A DNA stretch of 64,000 nucleotides, from positions 6,302,501 to 6,366,500 of the forward strand of contig NZ_CP016809.1 of NCBI RefSeq assembly GCF_002741055.1, in the 5' to 3' direction. The position numbers and the translations under genes were made by a program. The notes below the pieces were generated by a model. It saw only the letters and a list, made by a program, of their open reading frames with translations. It was not told the DNA's origin and did no database searches. This DNA is from Paenibacillus ihbetae (lineage in GTDB: Bacteria; Bacillota; Bacilli; Paenibacillales; Paenibacillaceae). Each line of letters begins with the position of its first letter. Within the stretch, counting starts at the first letter, position 1. Below are positions 1 to 58,251 of this stretch, one piece after another.

Positions 1-938
1 TGGATAAATACGAGTCGATCGACTGGCTGAACGAGGCGCTTTTGGAGCAAAAAGGGATACGCGGCGTATGGTATCCGCGCAAGCTTGATTCGGGCGTTAA
101 CGTCCTATCGTTCGCTTTGCCTTTAAATCGGCTTTCCACCGCGACTCGTGGAACGATCGTCGTCAATTTGAAGGAGAGTCAGATCCAGCAGTACCTGCAG
201 TCAACGAAATCAGGGAAGCAGAGCTATTTGCTTATGAAGCCGACCGGCACCATTATCTCCCATCATGACAAGAGTTTACTGCTTAAGAACGCCTATGATG
301 AGCCGTTCATCCTCGATATTTCCCGGCAAGCACCCGAAGGCTACATGTTCCGTGAGCATGATGGTGAGCGGTTACTGTATGCGTGGTCCCGTACGAAAGA
401 ATTCGGCTGGACGAACGTAGGCATCTACTCGGTCGATGAATTGATGAATAAGCCCCACGCTTTGCAGAGAAGCATTATTTTGCTTACGATCGTGATTATT
501 TTCGCGGGATCCATCCTGACTGTTTTTATTGCCACATGGTTGTCCAGGCCGGCCAGGGAGTTGGTTCGTGCCGTTCGGGGACGCATCAATCCTGGGGCTC
601 AAGATAAGAATGAGCTTGCCTTTCTGGATGCGGCATTCCGGCGGATGCAGGAAGAGGAGGAAGGGCTGTATAAGCTTCTGAGTATCCACGAGCAGGATGC
701 TCAAAGCTATGCCATCCATCGTTTGCTGCGGGGTGAAGTGACGCCACAAGCGGAAGAGATTTTCCCGGATTTGCACTTTCTTGTTGCCGTGGTATCCATC
801 AACGGTTATCGGAACTATATAAGCCGCCGGAACAACCCGGAAACACGCAGCTACCATCGCTACTTGCTCATCTCGAAATGCGACCATTTATTCCCGAGCG
901 GAAGCGCCATCCTTTGCGACGCCGGAATTGACGCTTAA
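1..938 (+). pseudogene. Truncated membrane-bound AraC-type sensor regulator (no HTH domain)
   Basis: The reading frame is open at the left edge (from base 3) and stops at 938. The visible part has an extracellular sensor region, one strong membrane segment (around 470-545, read as SIILLTIVIIFAGSILTVF), a HAMP-like stretch and the start of the cytoplasmic linker. This is the layout of the large membrane-anchored AraC/YesN regulators that sit beside sugar-uptake operons in Paenibacillus. The family ends in two helix-turn-helix motifs about 200-300 residues further on; none is present. The frame breaks off at about 890-915, where sequence of a solute-binding protein begins in another frame. I infer a deletion that removed the DNA-binding half, so the product cannot act as a regulator. 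An assembly misjoin is the alternative. Confidence 0.75.
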
Positions 939-1245
939 AGCCAACAAAAACAACTGGACGCCTGCGGGTTACGAGCAGATTGTCGAGGACATGATTAAAT
1001 ACCGTAACGAGACCAAACCATACCAGACGCCGGATCCGCTGTTCACCGTAGTCCTCGAGAAGGTTACCGAGTACAAGGCGGATTTGAACAACCTCTTCCA
1101 GGAGCTGTATCTTGATATTATTCTTGCGCCGGCCGATCAGTTCGATGCGAAATACGAAGCGGCCAAGCAGAAATTCCTCGACGCAGGCTACCAGGAGATT
1201 TTGGACGAGAAGCAAAAAGCGATTGATGCAGGCCAATTCAGGTAG
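880..1245 (+). pseudogene. C-terminal remnant of a LipO-type sugar ABC solute-binding protein
   Basis: This frame differs from that of the upstream regulator fragment. From about 900 it reads like the last 110 residues of a Paenibacillus extracellular solute-binding protein of the LplA/LipO type: a region ending PELTLKANKNNW, a conserved YRNETKPYQTPDPLF patch, and a tail FDAKYEAAKQKFLDAGYQEI. The N-terminal four-fifths, including signal peptide and lipobox, are missing, and there is no convincing ribosome site before the only usable start (TTG 928). In intact loci the order is AraC regulator, two permeases, this protein, then a glycosidase. The deletion therefore probably removed the regulator's end, both permeases and most of the binding protein. 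Confidence 0.7.
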
Positions 1246-1390
1246 ATCGTAATAATCTTGCGATATACGAAGTTGGACGATAGAAATGATCCGATTATAA
1301 TTAAAATAGAGAAATCCGCTAGCAGCGGCGACCGTATGAACATTTCGTACGGTTGCCCCAAACGGTACAGTAATCGTACAACCAATACAC

Positions 1391-1417
1391 AGAGCTCCTG
1401 CCGCAAGCGGGGGCTCT
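1391..1417 (+). other. Hairpin between binding-protein remnant and GH105 gene
   Basis: AGAGCTCC pairs with GGGGCTCT (one G-U) and an inner CCGC pairs with GCGG. No U-tract follows, so it is more likely a stability or processing hairpin that separated expression of the binding protein from the hydrolase than a terminator. Confidence 0.35.
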
Positions 1418-1436
1418 GGATAATATGGAGGGCAAT

Positions 1437-2474
1437 ATGAATCTAAAATTAGATATTGCTTTGGAAGATTTAAAGCTATCCGCGAAGCGCATTGCGGACT
1501 ATACGTTCGGGATGGATTTGACATGGGACTGGCCGGGCGGTGTCGCATTCTATGGGATTAGCCGTCTGTTCGAGGTAACTGGCGAGCACGCTTACCTGGA
1601 TCGGATGATCGATTGGGTGGAGGAGTACTTCGAAGCGGGCATCCCGGAAGAATGGACCGTGAACTCCTGCGCGATGGGGCATATGCTGTTGACCCTGTAC
1701 GATCAGACAAAGGATCAGAAATATCTGGATCTTATTTTAAGCAAGATTGATTACTTGGAGCATCATGCATTGCGTTTCGGCGACCGGGTCCTTCAGCATA
1801 CGGTGTCGGCCAACAATGACTTTCCGGAGCAGTGCTGGGCGGATACGCTGTTCATGGCGGCATATTTGGAGCTTCGGGTCGGCGTGACGCTTGGCAAGAA
1901 GACGCTTATTGACGATGCGCTGCATCAATTCGAACGGCATATTCATTACCTGCAAGATGAGGATTCCGGGCTGTGGTACCATGGGTACAACCATATCAAA
2001 AAGAACCATATGTCCGCCATCCATTGGGCACGCGCCAATGCCTGGGCAGCCTATACGATGTCCCGTGCGGCAAGGGGGCTGCCGGAAGGATATCTTTATC
2101 CTCCCATGATGCATATATGGAGCTCCTTGCGCGACCAGCTGGCAGCCATTAAGCGGCTGCAGCATGAGGACGGGCTGTGGGGTACCGTACTCGATTACCC
2201 GGAAGCCTACGGCGAAGTATCGGCTACAGCGGGCATTGCAGCAGCCATGGTATTGCAGGGCAATCCGCTGCACGCGAAATATGTGAGAAGAGCCTTGGAC
2301 GGCGTACTCGCCAATATAGCGGACAACGGACGGGTACTGAACGTGTCCGGAGGTACGGCGGTCATGAACGATATCGAAGGATATCTCGGCATTGACCGGA
2401 AATGGGCTCAGGGCTGGGGACAAGGTTTGGCGCTGGCGTTCCTGGCGGCAGTCATTGAAGTTGTCGAAGCCTGA
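1437..2474 (+). CDS. GH105 unsaturated rhamnogalacturonyl/glucuronyl hydrolase
   Basis: This cytoplasmic (alpha/alpha)6-barrel hydrolase of family GH105 (YteR/YesR type) removes the unsaturated uronic acid from oligosaccharides made by pectin or rhamnogalacturonan lyases. The 345-residue length fits YesR. WADT around residue 133-137 places Asp136 at the general acid/base aspartate of YteR, and the AIHWARANAWAAY stretch is the conserved barrel segment of the family. GGAGG lies 5 bases before ATG 1437 but overlaps the possible ATG at 1425, so 1437 is preferred. There is no signal peptide. It follows the remnants of an uptake system, so its transporter would have to be supplied from elsewhere. 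Family is clear; exact substrate is not. Confidence 0.85.
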   Translation: MNLKLDIALEDLKLSAKRIADYTFGMDLTWDWPGGVAFYGISRLFEVTGEHAYLDRMIDWVEEYFEAGIPEEWTVNSCAMGHMLLTLYDQTKDQKYLDLILSKIDYLEHHALRFGDRVLQHTVSANNDFPEQCWADTLFMAAYLELRVGVTLGKKTLIDDALHQFERHIHYLQDEDSGLWYHGYNHIKKNHMSAIHWARANAWAAYTMSRAARGLPEGYLYPPMMHIWSSLRDQLAAIKRLQHEDGLWGTVLDYPEAYGEVSATAGIAAAMVLQGNPLHAKYVRRALDGVLANIADNGRVLNVSGGTAVMNDIEGYLGIDRKWAQGWGQGLALAFLAAVIEVVEA

Positions 2475-26765: not shown

Positions 26766-27992
26766 TTAAACCTTAGCCGATCCGGTTTGTGGGCCGGATG
26801 GCACACTGCGGAGCCAGCTGCGGCGCCATTTCAGCTGCATTACGATCGTAAGCGTCAACGAAGCCGCCGCGATAAAACTTAAAATGATGAAGCCTGTGGC
26901 GTATGAGCCTGTCGCTTGGTACAGCCGCCCCAGAATCAGCGGCAGCGCAAAGCCTCCAAGTCCACCGGCAGCACCGACAATCCCGGTAACCAGGCCGATC
27001 TCGCCGGCAAACCGTTGAGGAACGAGCTGAAACACGGAACCGTTACCCGCCCCCAGACACATCATACCGATAAACAGCAGCGTGACAACGACCCAAAGAG
27101 GAGGCAGGAAGGAGACGCCGATCAGCATGATCGCTGCCCCGGCATAGAGAATCATCAGCATCCGGGAGCCGCCGATTCGATCGGCCAGAAATCCCCCCAC
27201 GGGTCGGAAAAAGCTCCCTGCGATGACGCAGATCGTTGTAATGTCTGCAGCCTGAACCGCAGAGAGACCGTACTGGGTGTTAAAGAAGATCGTCAAATAG
27301 TTAGCGAGCCCGACAAAGCCGCCAAAGGTCACGCAGTACAGGGCGCAGAATACCCAAGCATCGCGTTGTTTAAGGACATGACCATATTCGGACAGCCGTT
27401 TGGGGGCAGGCCGATTCGGACTGTTGCGGGCAAACAGCGAGAAGTAAATGAATACCAGCACAATAGGTATGATGGCAAGACCGAACACAATCTCCCAGTT
27501 TCCGAAATGCTGGGCTAGACGATTGGCGAACAGCGTTGCAAGGACGGTACCGCTGTTCCCGGCACCCGCGATCCCCATCGCCAGGCCTTGATGTTCCTTG
27601 GGATACCACTGACCAGCGAGAGGGAGCGCTGCGGCGAACGAGGCTCCCGCGACCCCCAGCAGAACGGCAACGACGTACAATTGATCGAGTGAATCTACCC
27701 ATAACCAACCGAGCAACAGAGGGATCAGGGTCACGATCATTCCAATCTGAGCTGTGAGTTTGGGGCCGAGACGGTCAGCCAGAAAGCCTAATACAAGTCT
27801 GAGGATCGAGCCGCCCAGCACAGGCAGCGCCACCAGATTTGCCTTCTGAACCGGGTCCATCGGATAATCCGCGGCAATGACGACCGCAAGCGGCCCAAGC
27901 ATGCCCCAAATCATAAAGCTGATATCGAAATACAGAAAAGCGCCGAACAGGGAGGGCTTATGCCCGCTTTGCCAAAAACCTTTCCTCTCCAT
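26766..27992 (-). CDS. narK: NarK/NasA-type nitrate/nitrite transporter
   Basis: A 408-residue twelve-helix MFS protein of the nitrate/nitrite porter family. Family marks are FDISFMIWGMLGPLAVVIA in helix 1, LGFLADRLGPKL (motif A), the nitrate-signature-like stretches GMAGAGNSG-type (GIAGAGNSGTVLATLFANRL) and GIVGAAGGLGGFALP, and a QWYPKEHQGLAMG loop. It imports nitrate for the divergent nasBC. The start at 27992 is chosen for GAGGAGTG upstream; the GTG at 28001 overlaps that site. Its 180-nt leader contains an ANTAR-type antiterminator element and its promoter a GlnR/TnrA box. The assimilatory context would also allow the name nasA. Confidence 0.9.
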   Translation of the reverse strand: MERKGFWQSGHKPSLFGAFLYFDISFMIWGMLGPLAVVIAADYPMDPVQKANLVALPVLGGSILRLVLGFLADRLGPKLTAQIGMIVTLIPLLLGWLWVDSLDQLYVVAVLLGVAGASFAAALPLAGQWYPKEHQGLAMGIAGAGNSGTVLATLFANRLAQHFGNWEIVFGLAIIPIVLVFIYFSLFARNSPNRPAPKRLSEYGHVLKQRDAWVFCALYCVTFGGFVGLANYLTIFFNTQYGLSAVQAADITTICVIAGSFFRPVGGFLADRIGGSRMLMILYAGAAIMLIGVSFLPPLWVVVTLLFIGMMCLGAGNGSVFQLVPQRFAGEIGLVTGIVGAAGGLGGFALPLILGRLYQATGSYATGFIILSFIAAASLTLTIVMQLKWRRSWLRSVPSGPQTGSAKV

Positions 27993-28067
27993 GACTATCA
28001 CTCCTCATCCAAATGTGTTCTTTCTCTGTTCTCTCTGCTTCATGAAGCCAAATCCCCAGCCGCAGGC

Positions 28068-28110
28068 AAAAAAGGCCGCAAGTCGCTCTTTTCCAGAACG
28101 ATTCGCGGCC
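28068..28110 (-). terminator. Leader terminator (attenuator) of the nitrate transporter transcript
   Basis: Minus strand: GGCCGCGAATCG pairs with CGACTTGCGGCC (one mismatch, one G-U), the stem extends into the loop, and TTTTTT (28073-28068) follows. It lies between promoter and start codon. Its 5' arm shares GCC with the second hexaloop hairpin. Confidence 0.75.
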
Positions 28111-28147
28111 ACATTGCCCATGACAAAAAACACGTCATTGTGTCTTT
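28107..28147 (-). promoter_or_regulatory. ANTAR-type dual hexaloop element in the nitrate transporter leader
   Basis: Minus strand: hairpin P1 is AAAGACAC-[AATGAC]-GTGTTTTT (loop 28139-28134). After a 7-nt linker, P2 is GGC-[AATGTG]-GCC (loop 28115-28110). Both six-base loops have A at position 1 and G at position 4, the rule for ANTAR-protein targets. P2 and the following terminator use the same GCC bases, so they exclude each other. Binding of an ANTAR protein would hold P2 and allow read-through. Confidence 0.7.
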
Positions 28148-28178
28148 CGTCTAACTATTCAGCTGATTTGATGTTCAC

Positions 28179-28208
28179 ATTATAGACAGCAGGGTGAAAT
28201 TGTGTCAA
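28179..28208 (-). promoter_or_regulatory. Sigma-A promoter of the nitrate transporter gene
   Basis: Minus strand: TTGACA, 18-bp spacer, TATAAT, both boxes perfect. The -35 lies inside a GlnR/TnrA box. Confidence 0.8.
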
Positions 28209-28219
28209 TATACATAACA
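28203..28219. promoter_or_regulatory. GlnR/TnrA box 1
   Basis: TGTCAATATACATAACA fits TGTNA-N7-TNACA exactly. It covers the -35 of the nitrate transporter promoter (centre near -39). Confidence 0.75.
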
Positions 28220-28264
28220 TAAAAATTTAAAAAATTTAAATTTATAAATTTACCACACTCTAAA

Positions 28265-28281
28265 TGTAATATATATTGACA
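28265..28281. promoter_or_regulatory. GlnR/TnrA box 2
   Basis: TGTAATATATATTGACA fits TGTNA-N7-TNACA exactly. It covers the -35 of the nasB promoter (centre near -38). The 45 bp between the two boxes is almost pure A/T. Confidence 0.75.
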
Positions 28282-28304
28282 TCACAATCAACATGAACTA
28301 ATCT
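28276..28304 (+). promoter_or_regulatory. Sigma-A promoter of nasBC
   Basis: TTGACA (28276-28281), 17-bp spacer, TAATCT (28299-28304). The -35 lies inside GlnR/TnrA box 2. Confidence 0.7.
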
Positions 28305-28326
28305 GTATTTAACATCATAATCGAAG

Positions 28327-28365
28327 ATCGGCACAATGCTGTGCCGGTTTTGAGGCAATGACGCC
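28327..28365 (+). promoter_or_regulatory. ANTAR-type dual hexaloop element in the nasB leader
   Basis: P1 is ATCGGCAC-[AATGCT]-GTGCCGGT (loop 28335-28340). After a 5-nt linker, P2 is GGC-[AATGAC]-GCC (loop 28357-28362). Both loops carry A1 and G4, as in the divergent leader, and P2 again is GGC/GCC with its 3' arm shared with the terminator that follows. Confidence 0.75.
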
Positions 28366-28397
28366 CTTTCCCTGCGTGCAGGGGGAGGGCATTTTTG
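28363..28397 (+). terminator. Leader terminator (attenuator) of nasBC
   Basis: GCCCTTTCCCTG (28363-28374) pairs along all 12 positions with CAGGGGGAGGGC (28379-28390), including two G-U pairs, followed by ATTTTTG. It lies 46 bp before the nasB start, inside the transcribed leader. Confidence 0.85.
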
Positions 28398-28442: not shown

Positions 28443-30611
28443 ATGCAGCGAAAAAAACTTATAGTCGTCGGGAATGGCATGGCGGGGATAAAGTGTGTTG
28501 AAGAAATCCTAAAGCTTGCTCCGGAGCACTTTGATATTACGATATTCGGAGCCGAGGCCTTTCCAAACTATAATCGGATCCTCTTATCCAAAGTCCTGCA
28601 AGGTGAACATGCGCTGCAGGATATTATTCTGAACGACTGGTCCTGGTATGAGCAGCATGGGATCCGCTTGTTGACTGGTGAGCCCGTTCGTCATATCGAT
28701 GCCAAACGGCGTTTCGTCGAGACAGCCTCCGGCCTACGCGAAACGTATGATGCATTAATCCTGGCAACCGGCTCATCTCCATTCATACCGCCTATCCCAG
28801 GAACGGATAAGGAAGGGGTTATATCCTTTCGAACGATTGACGATTGCGAGAGAATGTCCGAAATGTCCAAATCCTATAGAAAAGCGGCTGTCATTGGCGG
28901 AGGGCTGTTAGGCTTGGAAGCAGCTCGCGGGCTGCTTCATCTTGGTATGGAGACCCGGGTGGTTCATAACGCACCTTATATCATGAATCGACAGCTGGAT
29001 CGCGTCGCTGCGGATATGCTTCAGCGAGAACTCGAGAGCCAAGGGATGCAATTTTATTTGGCGAAAAACACCACGCGAATTACAGGACGAACAAGGGCGC
29101 AGGGGCTTCGGTTTATGGACGGAGCGCGGCTTGATGCGGATGTGGTCGTCCTCGCCGTGGGGATCAGGCCGAACATAGAGCTGGCCCAAAGAAGCGGTAT
29201 TCTAACGCGGAGGGCGATCGTCGTAGATGACTTCATGAGAACAAGCGATCCGAACATTTTTGCCGTAGGGGAATGCGCGGAACACCGGGGAGTAAGTTAC
29301 GGCCTGGTAGCCCCCTTATATGAGCAGGGGAGGGTGCTTGCCCGCGTCATCTGCGGACACGAGACTGAGCCCTATAACGGGTCGATCCCGTCCTCCCAGC
29401 TTAAAATATCGGATGTAGATGTTTTTTCCGCCGGCGTAATCTCGGGTGAAGGGGTTGAAACCGCTGTTCAGAATTATGATGCCATTTGCGGCACATACAA
29501 AAAAGTAACCATGCACAACGGCAAGATTGCCGGGGCAATTCTGTTCGGGGATACGGCGGAAGGAGCTGCATTGCTGGCATTTGTGAAACGGGGTGCGGCC
29601 GTAGCAGAGCTTCTCTTGCGTGAGCGTGCTGCCAGCCCGGCGGAAGCGGCGGCTGAAGCGCTGCCGGACCATGAAACGGTGTGCGCTTGCAACCGTGTCA
29701 GCAAAGCGGCGATCATTCATGCCATAACCGACCACGATTTAACAAGTGCCGAAGAAGTTAAGGCGCATACTAAAGCATCTGCTTCTTGCGGCGGATGCCG
29801 GCCTATGGTGGTTGGAATTGTCCAATATATGCAAAGCAGTAGAACGAAGGATAAGCCGCAGAAACAAAAGGAAGTCGGAACCCCGGCGGAAGCTCCTGTA
29901 TGCGATTGTACGGTTCATGGTCATCCGTCAATGAAGCAAGCCATTACTGACGCAGTGAATGAAGGCTGTCGTACCATCCCGGACATCATGTCGCATCTGG
30001 GCTGGAAGAAGGCGGGCGGATGTACCCTATGCCTCCCGATCATACGATTCTATCTGGAAATGGCGGGCGATGTTAACGATGAAGAGCGGATAGCGGCTAG
30101 GAAGGCACATAGCCATGTTTCTTATGCAGATCAATCGTATTATCAGGGCGTGCGGATACGGATTGACGAGGGGGAAGCTTCCGACCCGATCGCGGCTGGC
30201 ATTCAGCGCATTGGGGAAAGGCTCCGCAGCAGCTGGCAAAATGTAACGCTTCCTTATCCGGTAAGTGCCGGCGTGTCATATGGGACAGGGTCGCCCATTG
30301 GAATTCTTGTCCAGGGGATCGGGATCTCAGCTTCCCCCGCGGGTTGGGAGGCGTATCTCGGCGGACATGCGGAGCATCCTGTCCGTGAAGGACAGCTGAT
30401 CGGTGTTGCAGAGCGCGAGGAAGACGTCGTTCGGCTCGTATCCGCTTGTCTGCAGTGGTATCGGCAGAACGGCTTCTACGATGAACCGCTGTGGGCGTGG
30501 GTGGAACGTACAGATGTCCTTGCGATCCGGGAGATTGTGCTTGACGAAGAGATGCAGCGTGAGCTTGCAGAAAAGCTGTCGCGACGTTCGTTGAAAGCTT
30601 ATGCCGGTTAA
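28443..30611 (+). CDS. nasB: Assimilatory nitrate reductase electron-transfer subunit
   Basis: The 722-residue flavoprotein passes electrons from NAD(P)H to the nitrate reductase NasC. Residues 1-310 form the FAD/NAD(P)H oxidoreductase part (VVGNGMAGIKCVEEIL, LATGSSPFIPPIPG, VIGGGLLGLEAARGL). Around 414-462 is a first BFD-like [2Fe-2S] domain (CACNRVS...SCGGC) and around 487-550 a second (CDCTVHG...GGCTLC). The last 150 residues resemble the ferredoxin-like half domain of nitrite/sulfite reductases. TGGAGG precedes ATG 28443. nasC follows after 41 bp. No nitrite reductase gene (nasDE) is in the window, so it must be elsewhere. Confidence 0.88.
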   Translation: MQRKKLIVVGNGMAGIKCVEEILKLAPEHFDITIFGAEAFPNYNRILLSKVLQGEHALQDIILNDWSWYEQHGIRLLTGEPVRHIDAKRRFVETASGLRETYDALILATGSSPFIPPIPGTDKEGVISFRTIDDCERMSEMSKSYRKAAVIGGGLLGLEAARGLLHLGMETRVVHNAPYIMNRQLDRVAADMLQRELESQGMQFYLAKNTTRITGRTRAQGLRFMDGARLDADVVVLAVGIRPNIELAQRSGILTRRAIVVDDFMRTSDPNIFAVGECAEHRGVSYGLVAPLYEQGRVLARVICGHETEPYNGSIPSSQLKISDVDVFSAGVISGEGVETAVQNYDAICGTYKKVTMHNGKIAGAILFGDTAEGAALLAFVKRGAAVAELLLRERAASPAEAAAEALPDHETVCACNRVSKAAIIHAITDHDLTSAEEVKAHTKASASCGGCRPMVVGIVQYMQSSRTKDKPQKQKEVGTPAEAPVCDCTVHGHPSMKQAITDAVNEGCRTIPDIMSHLGWKKAGGCTLCLPIIRFYLEMAGDVNDEERIAARKAHSHVSYADQSYYQGVRIRIDEGEASDPIAAGIQRIGERLRSSWQNVTLPYPVSAGVSYGTGSPIGILVQGIGISASPAGWEAYLGGHAEHPVREGQLIGVAEREEDVVRLVSACLQWYRQNGFYDEPLWAWVERTDVLAIREIVLDEEMQRELAEKLSRRSLKAYAG

Positions 30612-30652: not shown

Positions 30653-32776
30653 ATGGTTCATACGGATTTGGATATAGAGAGAGCTTCTGCCCAGGTAGAG
30701 ACTCAATGTCCTTTTTGCAGTGTACAGTGTAAGATGACGGTTACTGAAGTGGAGACAGGCGTTTCGGGTCAGCGCCGAACTGCCTACCAGATTGAAGGAG
30801 TGCCAAACGCTGCCTCCCAGGGCAGAGTTTGCGTCAAAGGCATGAATGCGCATCAGCATGCTGTCCACTCGCAGCGGTTGCTGGAACCACTGATCCGTGT
30901 CAACGGCGAGCTCGTTCCTTGTTCCTGGGACGAGGCGATTCACGTGATAAGCCATCGGTTACAGACGATTTCAGACCAGTACGGTACTGATGCGAATGCC
31001 GTATACGGCGGTGGATCGCTGACCAACGAAACGGCCTATTTGCTCGGCAAATTTGCCAGAGTGGCGCTCGGCACGAAATATATCGATTATAACGGTCGTT
31101 TCTGCATGTCGGCAGCGGCCTCTGCGGGGAGTAAAACCTTTGGGATTGACAGGGGACTGACGTTCAGGCTGACCGATATTCCTATGGCCCGCTGCATTGT
31201 GCTCGCCGGTACCAATATCGCAGAGTGCCAGCCGACGCTGCTGCCGTATTTTAACCAAGCGAAAGAGAACGGAGCGAAGATCGTGGTCATCGACCCGCGG
31301 AAAACGGCGACAGCGGCCATTGCGGATATCCACCTGCCGATCAAACCAGGTACAGATGCTTTGCTGGCTGATGCCATGCTTAGCATCATCATGGATGAGG
31401 GCTTCGTGGATGAAGCATTTATTCGGGCCAGAACAAATGGTTATGATGAGCTGCGAGCCTATATGAACGGGTTCAATTTGAATCGGGCTGCTGATCTATG
31501 CGGATTGGAGCTGGAGCAGATCCGGGAGGCTGCAAGGGCCTATGGCATGGCGGACACAGGAATGATATTGACCGCCCGGGGGGTAGAACAGCAGACGGAT
31601 GGGCACCTTGCGGTTCGGCATTTTCTTAACCTGGTGTTAGCCACAGGCAAAATCGGCAGGGAAGGCTGCGGATATGGAGCCGTCACCGGTCAGGGGAATG
31701 GACAGGGCGGAAGAGAGCATGGGCAAAAGGCTGATCAGCTGCCGGGCTACAGATCGATCGAGAATGAGGAGGACCGTAAGTACGTTGCCTCCGTATGGGG
31801 TGTTGAAGCTTCAAGCTTACCTGGAAAAGGCGTCTCGGCCTATGAGATGATGGAGCTTGTTCATCAGGGCGAGATCAAATCTCTCTTCGTGATGGGATCC
31901 AATCCCGTGGTTTCGAATCCGAACGCCGGGCATGTGGTGGAAGGCTTGAAGAGCCTTCATCTGCTGGTGGTTGCCGATATGTTCATGTCCGAAACGGCCC
32001 AATTGGCTGACATCGTGCTGCCGGTGACCTCCTATTTGGAGAATGAAGGGACACTGACCAATCTGGAGGGGCGGGTCCTTCTGCGGAAAGCCGGCCGTGA
32101 AGCGCCCGGTGAGTCGCGTCATGACTGGAGGATCCTCTGCTCCATAGCAGACCAACTGGGAAAGGGAAGGTATTTTCGCTTCAACGGGCCTGAAGAGATA
32201 TTTAACGAGCTGAGGCTGGCGAGCAAAGGCGGGGTTGCTGATTATTACGGCATCACGTATGACCGATTGCGCAGGGAGGAAGGGGTGTACTGGCCTTGCC
32301 CCTCTACCGAGGAGGCTGGGATCGGCTTGCTGTTCCAGCAATCGTTCGCCCACCCGGACGGGAAGGCCGTTTTCACCATTACAGAAGGAGAGCGCTGGGA
32401 AGGAGTGTCCGAGGAATACCCGCTAATCCTAACCAATGGACGTGTATTGTCCCATTATCTGACCGGAGTGCAGACCCGGAGAAGCCCATCTTTACTTGCA
32501 CGCGAGCTGGAGAATTTCGCAGAGATTCATCCGATTACCGCGCAGCGGTACCGGGTACGGGACGGGGAGTGGGTCGAAGTTGTGTCCGAGCATGGCTCTT
32601 TTACGGTCCGCTGCAGAGTTGGAGATTCTATTCGGCAAGATACCCTGTTTGTCCCTATGCATTGGGGTGGGGTACAGAACGTCAATCATGCTACCCGGCC
32701 GGAGCTGGACCCCTTCTGCAAAATGCCGGGGTTCAAGACCGCTGCCGTTCGGATTCGATCTCTCTATTTCAGGTAA
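30653..32776 (+). CDS. nasC: Assimilatory nitrate reductase catalytic subunit
   Basis: A molybdopterin enzyme reducing nitrate to nitrite in the cytoplasm. The N-terminal [4Fe-4S] site uses Cys19, Cys22, Cys26 and Cys60 (CPFCSVQC ... GRVCVKG). Molybdopterin-binding blocks follow: YGGGSLTNETAYLLGKFAR, NGRFCMSAAASAG, VIDPRKTATA, GQGNGQGGREHGQKADQLPG and VMGSNPVVSNPNA. The C-terminal dinucleotide-binding domain starts near LTNGRVLSHYLTG and ends in PMHWG and the usual FK tail. The 707-residue length fits NasC. AGGTGG precedes ATG 30653. It is the second gene of nasBC and is followed by a strong terminator. Confidence 0.92.
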   Translation: MVHTDLDIERASAQVETQCPFCSVQCKMTVTEVETGVSGQRRTAYQIEGVPNAASQGRVCVKGMNAHQHAVHSQRLLEPLIRVNGELVPCSWDEAIHVISHRLQTISDQYGTDANAVYGGGSLTNETAYLLGKFARVALGTKYIDYNGRFCMSAAASAGSKTFGIDRGLTFRLTDIPMARCIVLAGTNIAECQPTLLPYFNQAKENGAKIVVIDPRKTATAAIADIHLPIKPGTDALLADAMLSIIMDEGFVDEAFIRARTNGYDELRAYMNGFNLNRAADLCGLELEQIREAARAYGMADTGMILTARGVEQQTDGHLAVRHFLNLVLATGKIGREGCGYGAVTGQGNGQGGREHGQKADQLPGYRSIENEEDRKYVASVWGVEASSLPGKGVSAYEMMELVHQGEIKSLFVMGSNPVVSNPNAGHVVEGLKSLHLLVVADMFMSETAQLADIVLPVTSYLENEGTLTNLEGRVLLRKAGREAPGESRHDWRILCSIADQLGKGRYFRFNGPEEIFNELRLASKGGVADYYGITYDRLRREEGVYWPCPSTEEAGIGLLFQQSFAHPDGKAVFTITEGERWEGVSEEYPLILTNGRVLSHYLTGVQTRRSPSLLARELENFAEIHPITAQRYRVRDGEWVEVVSEHGSFTVRCRVGDSIRQDTLFVPMHWGGVQNVNHATRPELDPFCKMPGFKTAAVRIRSLYFR

Positions 32777-58068: not shown

Positions 58069-58094
58069 AAACCGGCACAATGATGTGCCGGTTT
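58069..58094 (+). terminator. Terminator after the anti-sigma gene
   Basis: AAACCGGCAC (58069-58078) pairs with GTGCCGGTTT around a six-base loop AATGAT; TATCCATTTTG follows. Loop and stem resemble P1 of the nasB leader, but no second hairpin or overlapping terminator follows. Confidence 0.65.
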
Positions 58095-58251
58095 ATCCAT
58101 TTTGATATGTAAAAAAACCTCTAAAAAAGACATGGGTACATAATAATATATAAAAAAAATCAACATAAGTCTATTTATTTTCCGGTAAAAACCGTATGTT
58201 ATTTATGCGACCGCGGCGCAATTCGAGAACCTACGAAGGGACATGATATGC

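Follow-up and report, generated by a model that had tools for sequence, protein, structure and literature searches.

Probable paired ANTAR-type attenuators on the divergent nitrate transcripts of Paenibacillus ihbetae and a single NasT-like candidate regulator gene

The two head-to-head nitrate transcripts of Paenibacillus ihbetae, one for the nitrate transporter gene narK and one for the nitrate reductase genes nasB and nasC, both begin with a dual-hexaloop attenuator of the type targeted by ANTAR proteins. This mechanism is known, and the narK and nasB leaders add members to it. They form part of a regulon with three or more sites, and the genome contains one ANTAR gene. We consider it very probable that GlnR-type control of initiation is combined here with NasT-type antitermination through this one ANTAR protein, a reading in which we infer the binding, the direction of the effect, the nitrate or nitrite signal and the action of GlnR. 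Passages of two earlier reports (PMC7496416, PMC3369931) describe ANTAR target RNAs as two hairpins with six-base loops carrying A1 and G4, a C-G closing pair, and a second hairpin (P2) that competes with a terminator.

The locus lies in a stretch of 64,000 nucleotides that was analysed as a whole (the window), and its features are collected in Table 1. For the transporter, the ATG at 27992 is a more likely start codon than the GTG at 28001. The siroheme domain NIR_SIR had no match in NasB at 1e-5. The nasB terminator was obtained from a pattern scan and folding, and the narK terminator from folding and a separate motif scan only.

Table 1. Features of the divergent nitrate locus (window positions; leader elements of narK are read on the minus strand).
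Feature	Position	Strand	Details
narK/nasA-like nitrate transporter gene (MFS)	26766..28001	-	TIGR00886, 292.4 bits, just below the cut-off of 311.7
narK intrinsic terminator	28068..28110	-	stem 28110-28074, U tract TTTTTT 28073-28068; GCC in common with P2
narK leader P2 (antiterminator), GGC-AATGTG-GCC	28107..28118	-	loop 28115-28110
narK leader P1 hairpin	28122..28151	-	hexaloop AATGAC 28139-28134
narK promoter, TTGACA-18-TATAAT	28179..28208	-	12/12 consensus letters (pattern scan)
GlnR/TnrA-type box TGTTATGTATATTGACA	28203..28219	-	overlaps narK -35; exact consensus match
GlnR/TnrA-type box TGTAATATATATTGACA	28265..28281	+	overlaps nasB -35; exact consensus match
nasB promoter	28276..28304	+	-35 TTGACA 28276-28281, -10 TAATCT 28299-28304, spacer 17; read from sequence
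nasB leader P1 hairpin	28324..28351	+	hexaloop AATGCT 28335-28340, core stem CGGCAC/GTGCCG
nasB leader P2 (antiterminator), GGC-AATGAC-GCC	28354..28365	+	loop 28357-28362
nasB intrinsic terminator	28363..28396	+	stem 28363-28390, U tract TTTTT 28392-28396; GCC in common with P2
nasB, nitrate reductase electron-transfer subunit, NirB-like	28443..30611	+	
nasC, assimilatory nitrate reductase catalytic subunit	30653..32776	+	NF047855, 1135.1 bits, cut-off 1100

The promoter, two hexaloop hairpins and terminator that an initial annotation of this DNA had described on both strands are all present in the sequence. The four loops read as it had quoted them, and A1 and G4 occur in every one. Its description of the loops as six bases long holds as a sequence pattern, but in the free fold of nasB P1 an A1-U6 pair leaves a loop of four bases; the narK P1 loop stays at six. 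If P1 is taken as 6-7 bp, the linker between P1 and P2 measures 7 nt in nasB and 8 nt in narK, and it is shorter with the longer P1 that folding predicts; passages of PMC3369931 give 5-12 nt for the eut leaders of E. faecalis.

Folding placed both leaders stably in the terminator state (z-scores of -5.47 for one and -6.05 for the other), and leaders ended ahead of the full terminator folded into P1 and the GGC-loop-GCC hairpin in both cases. Forcing P2 cost 6.4 kcal/mol in nasB and 10.8 kcal/mol in narK relative to the free fold, and removed the outermost terminator pairs beside the U tract, three in nasB and four in narK. Because the forced hairpin costs energy and strips these outer pairs, the two folds are predicted to exclude each other in both leaders, and P2 would need help to win. 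The proposal that the GCC of P2 doubles as the 5' arm of the terminator, making the structures mutually exclusive, is thus borne out by both the sequence and the forced folds.

The paired arrangement is correct as observed and well above chance. With a motif defined as a P1 of at least 5 pairs, a P2 of at least 3 and a terminator stem of at least 7, dinucleotide shuffles of the whole window (40 replicates) contained 0.075 motifs on average and never two. Among 2000 shuffles of the intergenic region, one held a motif and none held a motif on both strands. At gathering thresholds, Rfam matched nothing in either leader; its only matches in the window lay elsewhere, namely a T-box leader (RF00230, 50629-50866, plus strand, 94.1 bits) and an ncr1015-type RNA of Bacillus (RF02449, 44513-44631, minus strand, 92.8 bits).

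The leaders are conserved among relatives. Both occur in Paenibacillus lactis DSM 15596 and in P. cookii J21TS3, whose nasB is 94% and 78% identical, respectively. A nasB match above 700 bits was found in 11 of 100 genomes of the genus (own genome included), standing head-to-head with narK in ten; in the remaining one the contig ends ahead of narK. All 21 readable leaders (11 of nasB and 10 of narK, the window's two among them) have the dual-hexaloop pattern, for which A1, G4 and, in these 21, the GGC/GCC stem were scan criteria. Sixteen pass a stricter scan that includes a terminator test; the remaining ones (five leaders, nasB of L074 and L075, narK of L079-L081) were found by a scan without that test, their terminators being recognized by eye. 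A C-G pair closes the loop of both hairpins in all 43 collected leaders; it was a scan criterion for P2 in the 21 head-to-head leaders and never for P1. Similarly, A2 is found in both loops of all 43, and was not a scan criterion. In the narK leaders of L079, L080 and L081 a long linker separates P1 from P2 and contains an additional hairpin, which may restore the proximity of the two loops.

Covariation was examined in an alignment of 40 of the 43 leaders, the three narK leaders with the long linker being left out. Compared with 500 shuffles, which ignore the kinship of the leaders, 96.0% of the P1/P2 cells could pair (85.5% in shuffles), 52 cells had changed on both sides (18.3 in shuffles) and the covariation score was 0.397 (0.191 in shuffles); no shuffle reached any of these values. 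The number of P1 pairs with two-sided change, five of seven, was not above the shuffle mean of 4.9 in the same 40 leaders. The P2 stem is invariant in this alignment and is neutral as to pairing. As judged from these aligned sequences, P1 covaries.

The reach of the motif was assessed with three covariance models, each search scoring only the best first-pass candidates. Model R1, trained on all 40 leaders, returned three strong sites in the P. ihbetae genome (51.1, 48.9 and 39.4 bits), followed by a match at 23.5 bits. Model R3 left P. ihbetae and its nearest relative out of training; alignment A6, with 30 leaders, excludes five leaders that come from P. ihbetae and G002, as well as five nasD leaders that are similar. 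Across the 6.6 Mb, the top three R3 matches were again the same sites, namely the leaders of nasD (49.7 bits), nasB (47.7 bits) and narK (30.9 bits), with the next at 23.2 bits among the best 150 of 3091 candidates, so that in the covariance search proposed by the initial annotation the two divergent leaders rank second and third genome-wide under a left-out model. Model R2, whose 21 training leaders came from nasD or ANTAR loci in other genomes, matched nasD at 51.6 bits and nasB weakly, though second in the genome (22.1 bits, E 0.059); narK was not among its matches in this genome. It was too narrow as a left-out test to find narK, and R3 took its place.

The third leader (L002, 9572-9676) precedes nasD and is divergent from the ANTAR gene; nasD probably starts near 9727 of L002, downstream of the terminator. 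The narK and nasB leaders thus have a third companion site in the regulon. The fourth best genome match of both R1 and R3 is a perfect hairpin, CCGGCAC-AATGAT-GTGCCGG, at window positions 58072-58100 on the plus strand. It is a single hairpin with no P2, was not counted as an ANTAR site, and is perhaps a plain terminator. At the level of the order, 158 of 296 genomes have an R3 match with E of at most 0.001; the filters were stricter here, and at this threshold they recover two of the three P. ihbetae sites.

The genome has a single ANTAR match (C1:3508575-3509177, minus strand; L002:8576-9178; 68.2 bits), which lies about 2.8 Mb from the window and is divergent from nasD. This agrees with the expectation that, the window having no ANTAR protein of its own, the regulator must act in trans. 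The 14 control genomes, Bacillus subtilis among them, gave no ANTAR match. The protein has 200 residues, with the ANTAR domain at 139-192 (Pfam, 65.5 bits) and no match to a Pfam receiver at 0.001. Its predicted structure (mean pLDDT 90.4) consists of an alpha/beta domain, a long helix and the ANTAR helices. The closest solved structures are EutV (best), Rv1626 and AmiR, at TM-scores of about 0.45-0.57, with EutV and AmiR within the four best. The regulator thus appears to join a receiver-like domain, a fold recognized from structure only, to the ANTAR domain. We aligned the own sequence with relatives chosen from the 120 that were listed among 344 matches, 27 sequences in total. At the position of the phospho-acceptor Asp, placed by eye, they carry H, N, Q, D or V, with D in five, whereas W84, W85, C86 and C98 of the pseudo-receiver are invariant in all 27 members of this NasT branch. 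Some relatives are named "response regulator NasT" in their source records. The protein is NasT/AmiR-like with a pseudo-receiver. The attenuator interpretation had been made to hinge on an ANTAR-domain protein in the genome and on conservation of the loops and P2 stems in homologous leaders; the protein is encoded, and none of the 21 readable leaders has lost the loops or P2.

Gene and motif also occur together. Among 61 genomes of the genus, 43 combine an ANTAR match with the motif, 12 have neither, six have the ANTAR match only and none has the motif only, in a table compiled by hand from search results with stricter filters for the motif; the 100-genome genus sample includes the own genome, and several searched genomes also supplied training leaders. 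In four of the six ANTAR-only cases (L012-L015) the ANTAR part alone was matched, with no nasD or TrpD2-like match within the 1.5-kb flanks; the other two (G057, G059) are weak partial matches. Flanks were inspected for 30 of the 79 ANTAR matches. L142 is an EutV-like locus, in which an ANTAR response regulator with a Pfam receiver adjoins a histidine kinase, and L142-L144 resemble eut operons by eye. L126, from another Paenibacillus, carries the motif upstream of a stand-alone NarK-like gene, and the same motif is present in L127, L128 and L130. In L129 the motif precedes a NarK-like gene that is transcribed divergently from the ANTAR gene. In L141 (5303-5451, minus strand) two tandem attenuator matches precede a NarK-like gene, at 39.6 and 34.0 bits, the second terminator being recognized by eye.

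Since no nitrate sensor was identified, the assignment of nitrate or nitrite as the signal rests on gene content. NasS is a cytosolic nitrate-binding protein according to passages of PMC3795266. No NasS-like protein was seen among the ORFs of the ANTAR locus, seven of which were run against Pfam. The genome holds five NMT1_2 matches. As NasS candidates, four were ruled out by lipoprotein signals, recognized by eye, and the fifth, which has no signal, by its family: it scores over the cut-off of the SsuA type and adjoins an alkanesulfonate monooxygenase-like gene. The NIT domain had no match in the ANTAR protein or in the genome, and the same search also matched in none of the control genomes; no kinase was seen among the ORFs beside the ANTAR gene. 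Of the ANTAR protein and nitrate sensor that were sought together, one NasT-like protein was found, but no NasS or NIT domain.

As the searches gave no kinase beside the gene, no NIT domain and no cytosolic sensor like NasS, and as the acceptor Asp is not conserved while two cysteines are invariant, the leaders might be ANTAR targets that answer to something other than nitrate or nitrite, through constitutive binding or another nitrogen or redox cue. We regard this as unlikely, though less so than the other alternatives, because each of the three strong genomic sites stands before nitrate or nitrite genes; the GlnR/TnrA-type box upstream of the ANTAR gene fits nitrogen control as well, without naming the signal.

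A protein replacing NasS as sensor partner could be sought directly behind the ANTAR gene, where a TrpD2-like (Glycos_transf_3) protein is encoded (L002:7492-8550, minus strand). By the hand-compiled neighbour table, such a gene lies directly downstream on the same strand at 55 of the 79 ANTAR matches, and all 55 TrpD2-like matches above 350 bits adjoin ANTAR genes. Such a sensor role is nevertheless improbable. G015 has the ANTAR gene and the motif but no TrpD2-like neighbour, and ten weaker TrpD2-like matches lie away from ANTAR genes. Six of the seven inspected adjoin NasC-like or nitrite/sulfite reductase genes (four of these reductases assigned by family search, those of L132 and L134 by eye), and the seventh, L137, has no such neighbour. 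These six copies suggest a metabolic role and, together with G015, weaken the case for a dedicated sensor, so that the TrpD2-like protein is better described as a companion of nitrate genes than as a demonstrated partner.

A second candidate layer of control, missed by the initial annotation, lies at the promoters themselves. We take TGTNAN7TNACA to be the consensus of a GlnR/TnrA-type box. The 64-kb window has two exact matches, both on the -35 boxes (Table 1); at least two exact boxes anywhere were present in 6 of 100 window shuffles. Of the 11 nasB-side regions, 9 carry the box exactly and L004 carries it with a single mismatch, whereas L075 lacks it even when one mismatch is allowed; of the ten narK-side regions, six are exact and four have one mismatch. 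L002 contains three further boxes, ahead of the cyanase gene, the ANTAR gene and nasD. The cyanase gene is followed there by a formate/nitrite transporter gene (495-1851, plus strand), with the upstream box at 290-306. From their position, the boxes may subject each promoter to GlnR. TGTTATGTATATTGACA shares its core with the GlnR site GTGTTATGTATATTGACAT given for P. polymyxa nasA in a passage of PMC9948412, which reports that GlnR binds the divergent nasA/nasD1 promoter of that species (ChIP-qPCR, EMSA) and regulates it negatively. An alternative in which the leaders form ordinary terminators, or insulators separating the opposed promoters, and GlnR/TnrA acts at initiation only is highly improbable. 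The overlap of boxes with both -35 elements and the published GlnR control (PMC9948412) speak for it, but it leaves unexplained the conserved hexaloops, the C-G closing pairs, the P1 covariation and the finding that, among the 61 genomes, the motif was seen only where there is an ANTAR match.

Under the preferred combination of GlnR-type initiation control and NasT-type antitermination, the two transcripts would start at sigma-A type promoters and, because their -35 boxes lie within GlnR/TnrA-type sites, initiation would follow nitrogen supply. By default the terminator would form and RNA polymerase would halt ahead of the gene. In the presence of nitrate or nitrite, the single NasT-like ANTAR protein would bind the P1 and P2 hexaloops and hold P2 at the expense of the three or four outermost pairs of the terminator, so that transcription continues. 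As the same protein would also serve the nasD leader, uptake, nitrate reduction and nitrite reduction would be switched jointly.

A further step is tentative, plausible but somewhat less likely than not: the NasT branch of the Paenibacillales may sense nitrate or nitrite without NasS, through its own pseudo-receiver (W84-W85-C86, C98) or another partner, and together with GlnR boxes on opposed promoters this would give a two-input logic. Uptake and reduction would then obey nitrogen shortage at initiation and nitrate at elongation. The leaders point to an RNA layer of nitrate control above the published GlnR layer, among soil bacteria of an order with nitrogen-fixing members. A likely regulator gene can be named, the usual sensor NasS was not found at its expected place, and how the ANTAR protein learns of nitrate becomes a testable question.

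The titles and abstract openings of the literature searched described no ANTAR attenuator in Paenibacillus; Table S2 of Ramesh 2012, outside this search, may list one. A close counterpart in the genus, the divergent nasA/nasD1 locus of P. polymyxa WLY78, likewise has head-to-head nitrate genes, and its GlnR boxes belong to the same sequence type, but the control reported is by GlnR, and the term ANTAR is absent from the text of PMC9948412. In Bradyrhizobium diazoefficiens, a passage of PMC6759348 similarly predicts NasT-recognisable hairpins before narK; that host is Gram-negative, however, and its narK is up-regulated without NasT under denitrifying conditions. The NasS-NasT systems of Paracoccus and Azotobacter also use a receiver-like and ANTAR regulator of nas genes, with NasT binding the nasA leader (passages of PMC3795266), whereas here neither the neighbourhood of the gene nor the five NMT1_2 matches yielded a NasS-like protein. 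The eut leaders of Enterococcus share the dual hexaloop, the competition of P2 with the terminator and the use of one protein for several leaders (passages of PMC3369931); EutV is driven by EutW phosphorylation, in contrast to the present protein, whose acceptor Asp is not conserved and beside whose gene no kinase was seen. Finally, NasR and the nasF leader of Klebsiella oxytoca match in the nitrate assimilation target, the two hexaloop hairpins, the C-G closing pair, A1 and G4 (passages of PMC7496416), but NasR is a one-component NIT-ANTAR protein, whereas the Paenibacillus system has two opposed transcripts and a protein in which a pseudo-receiver is joined to the ANTAR domain.
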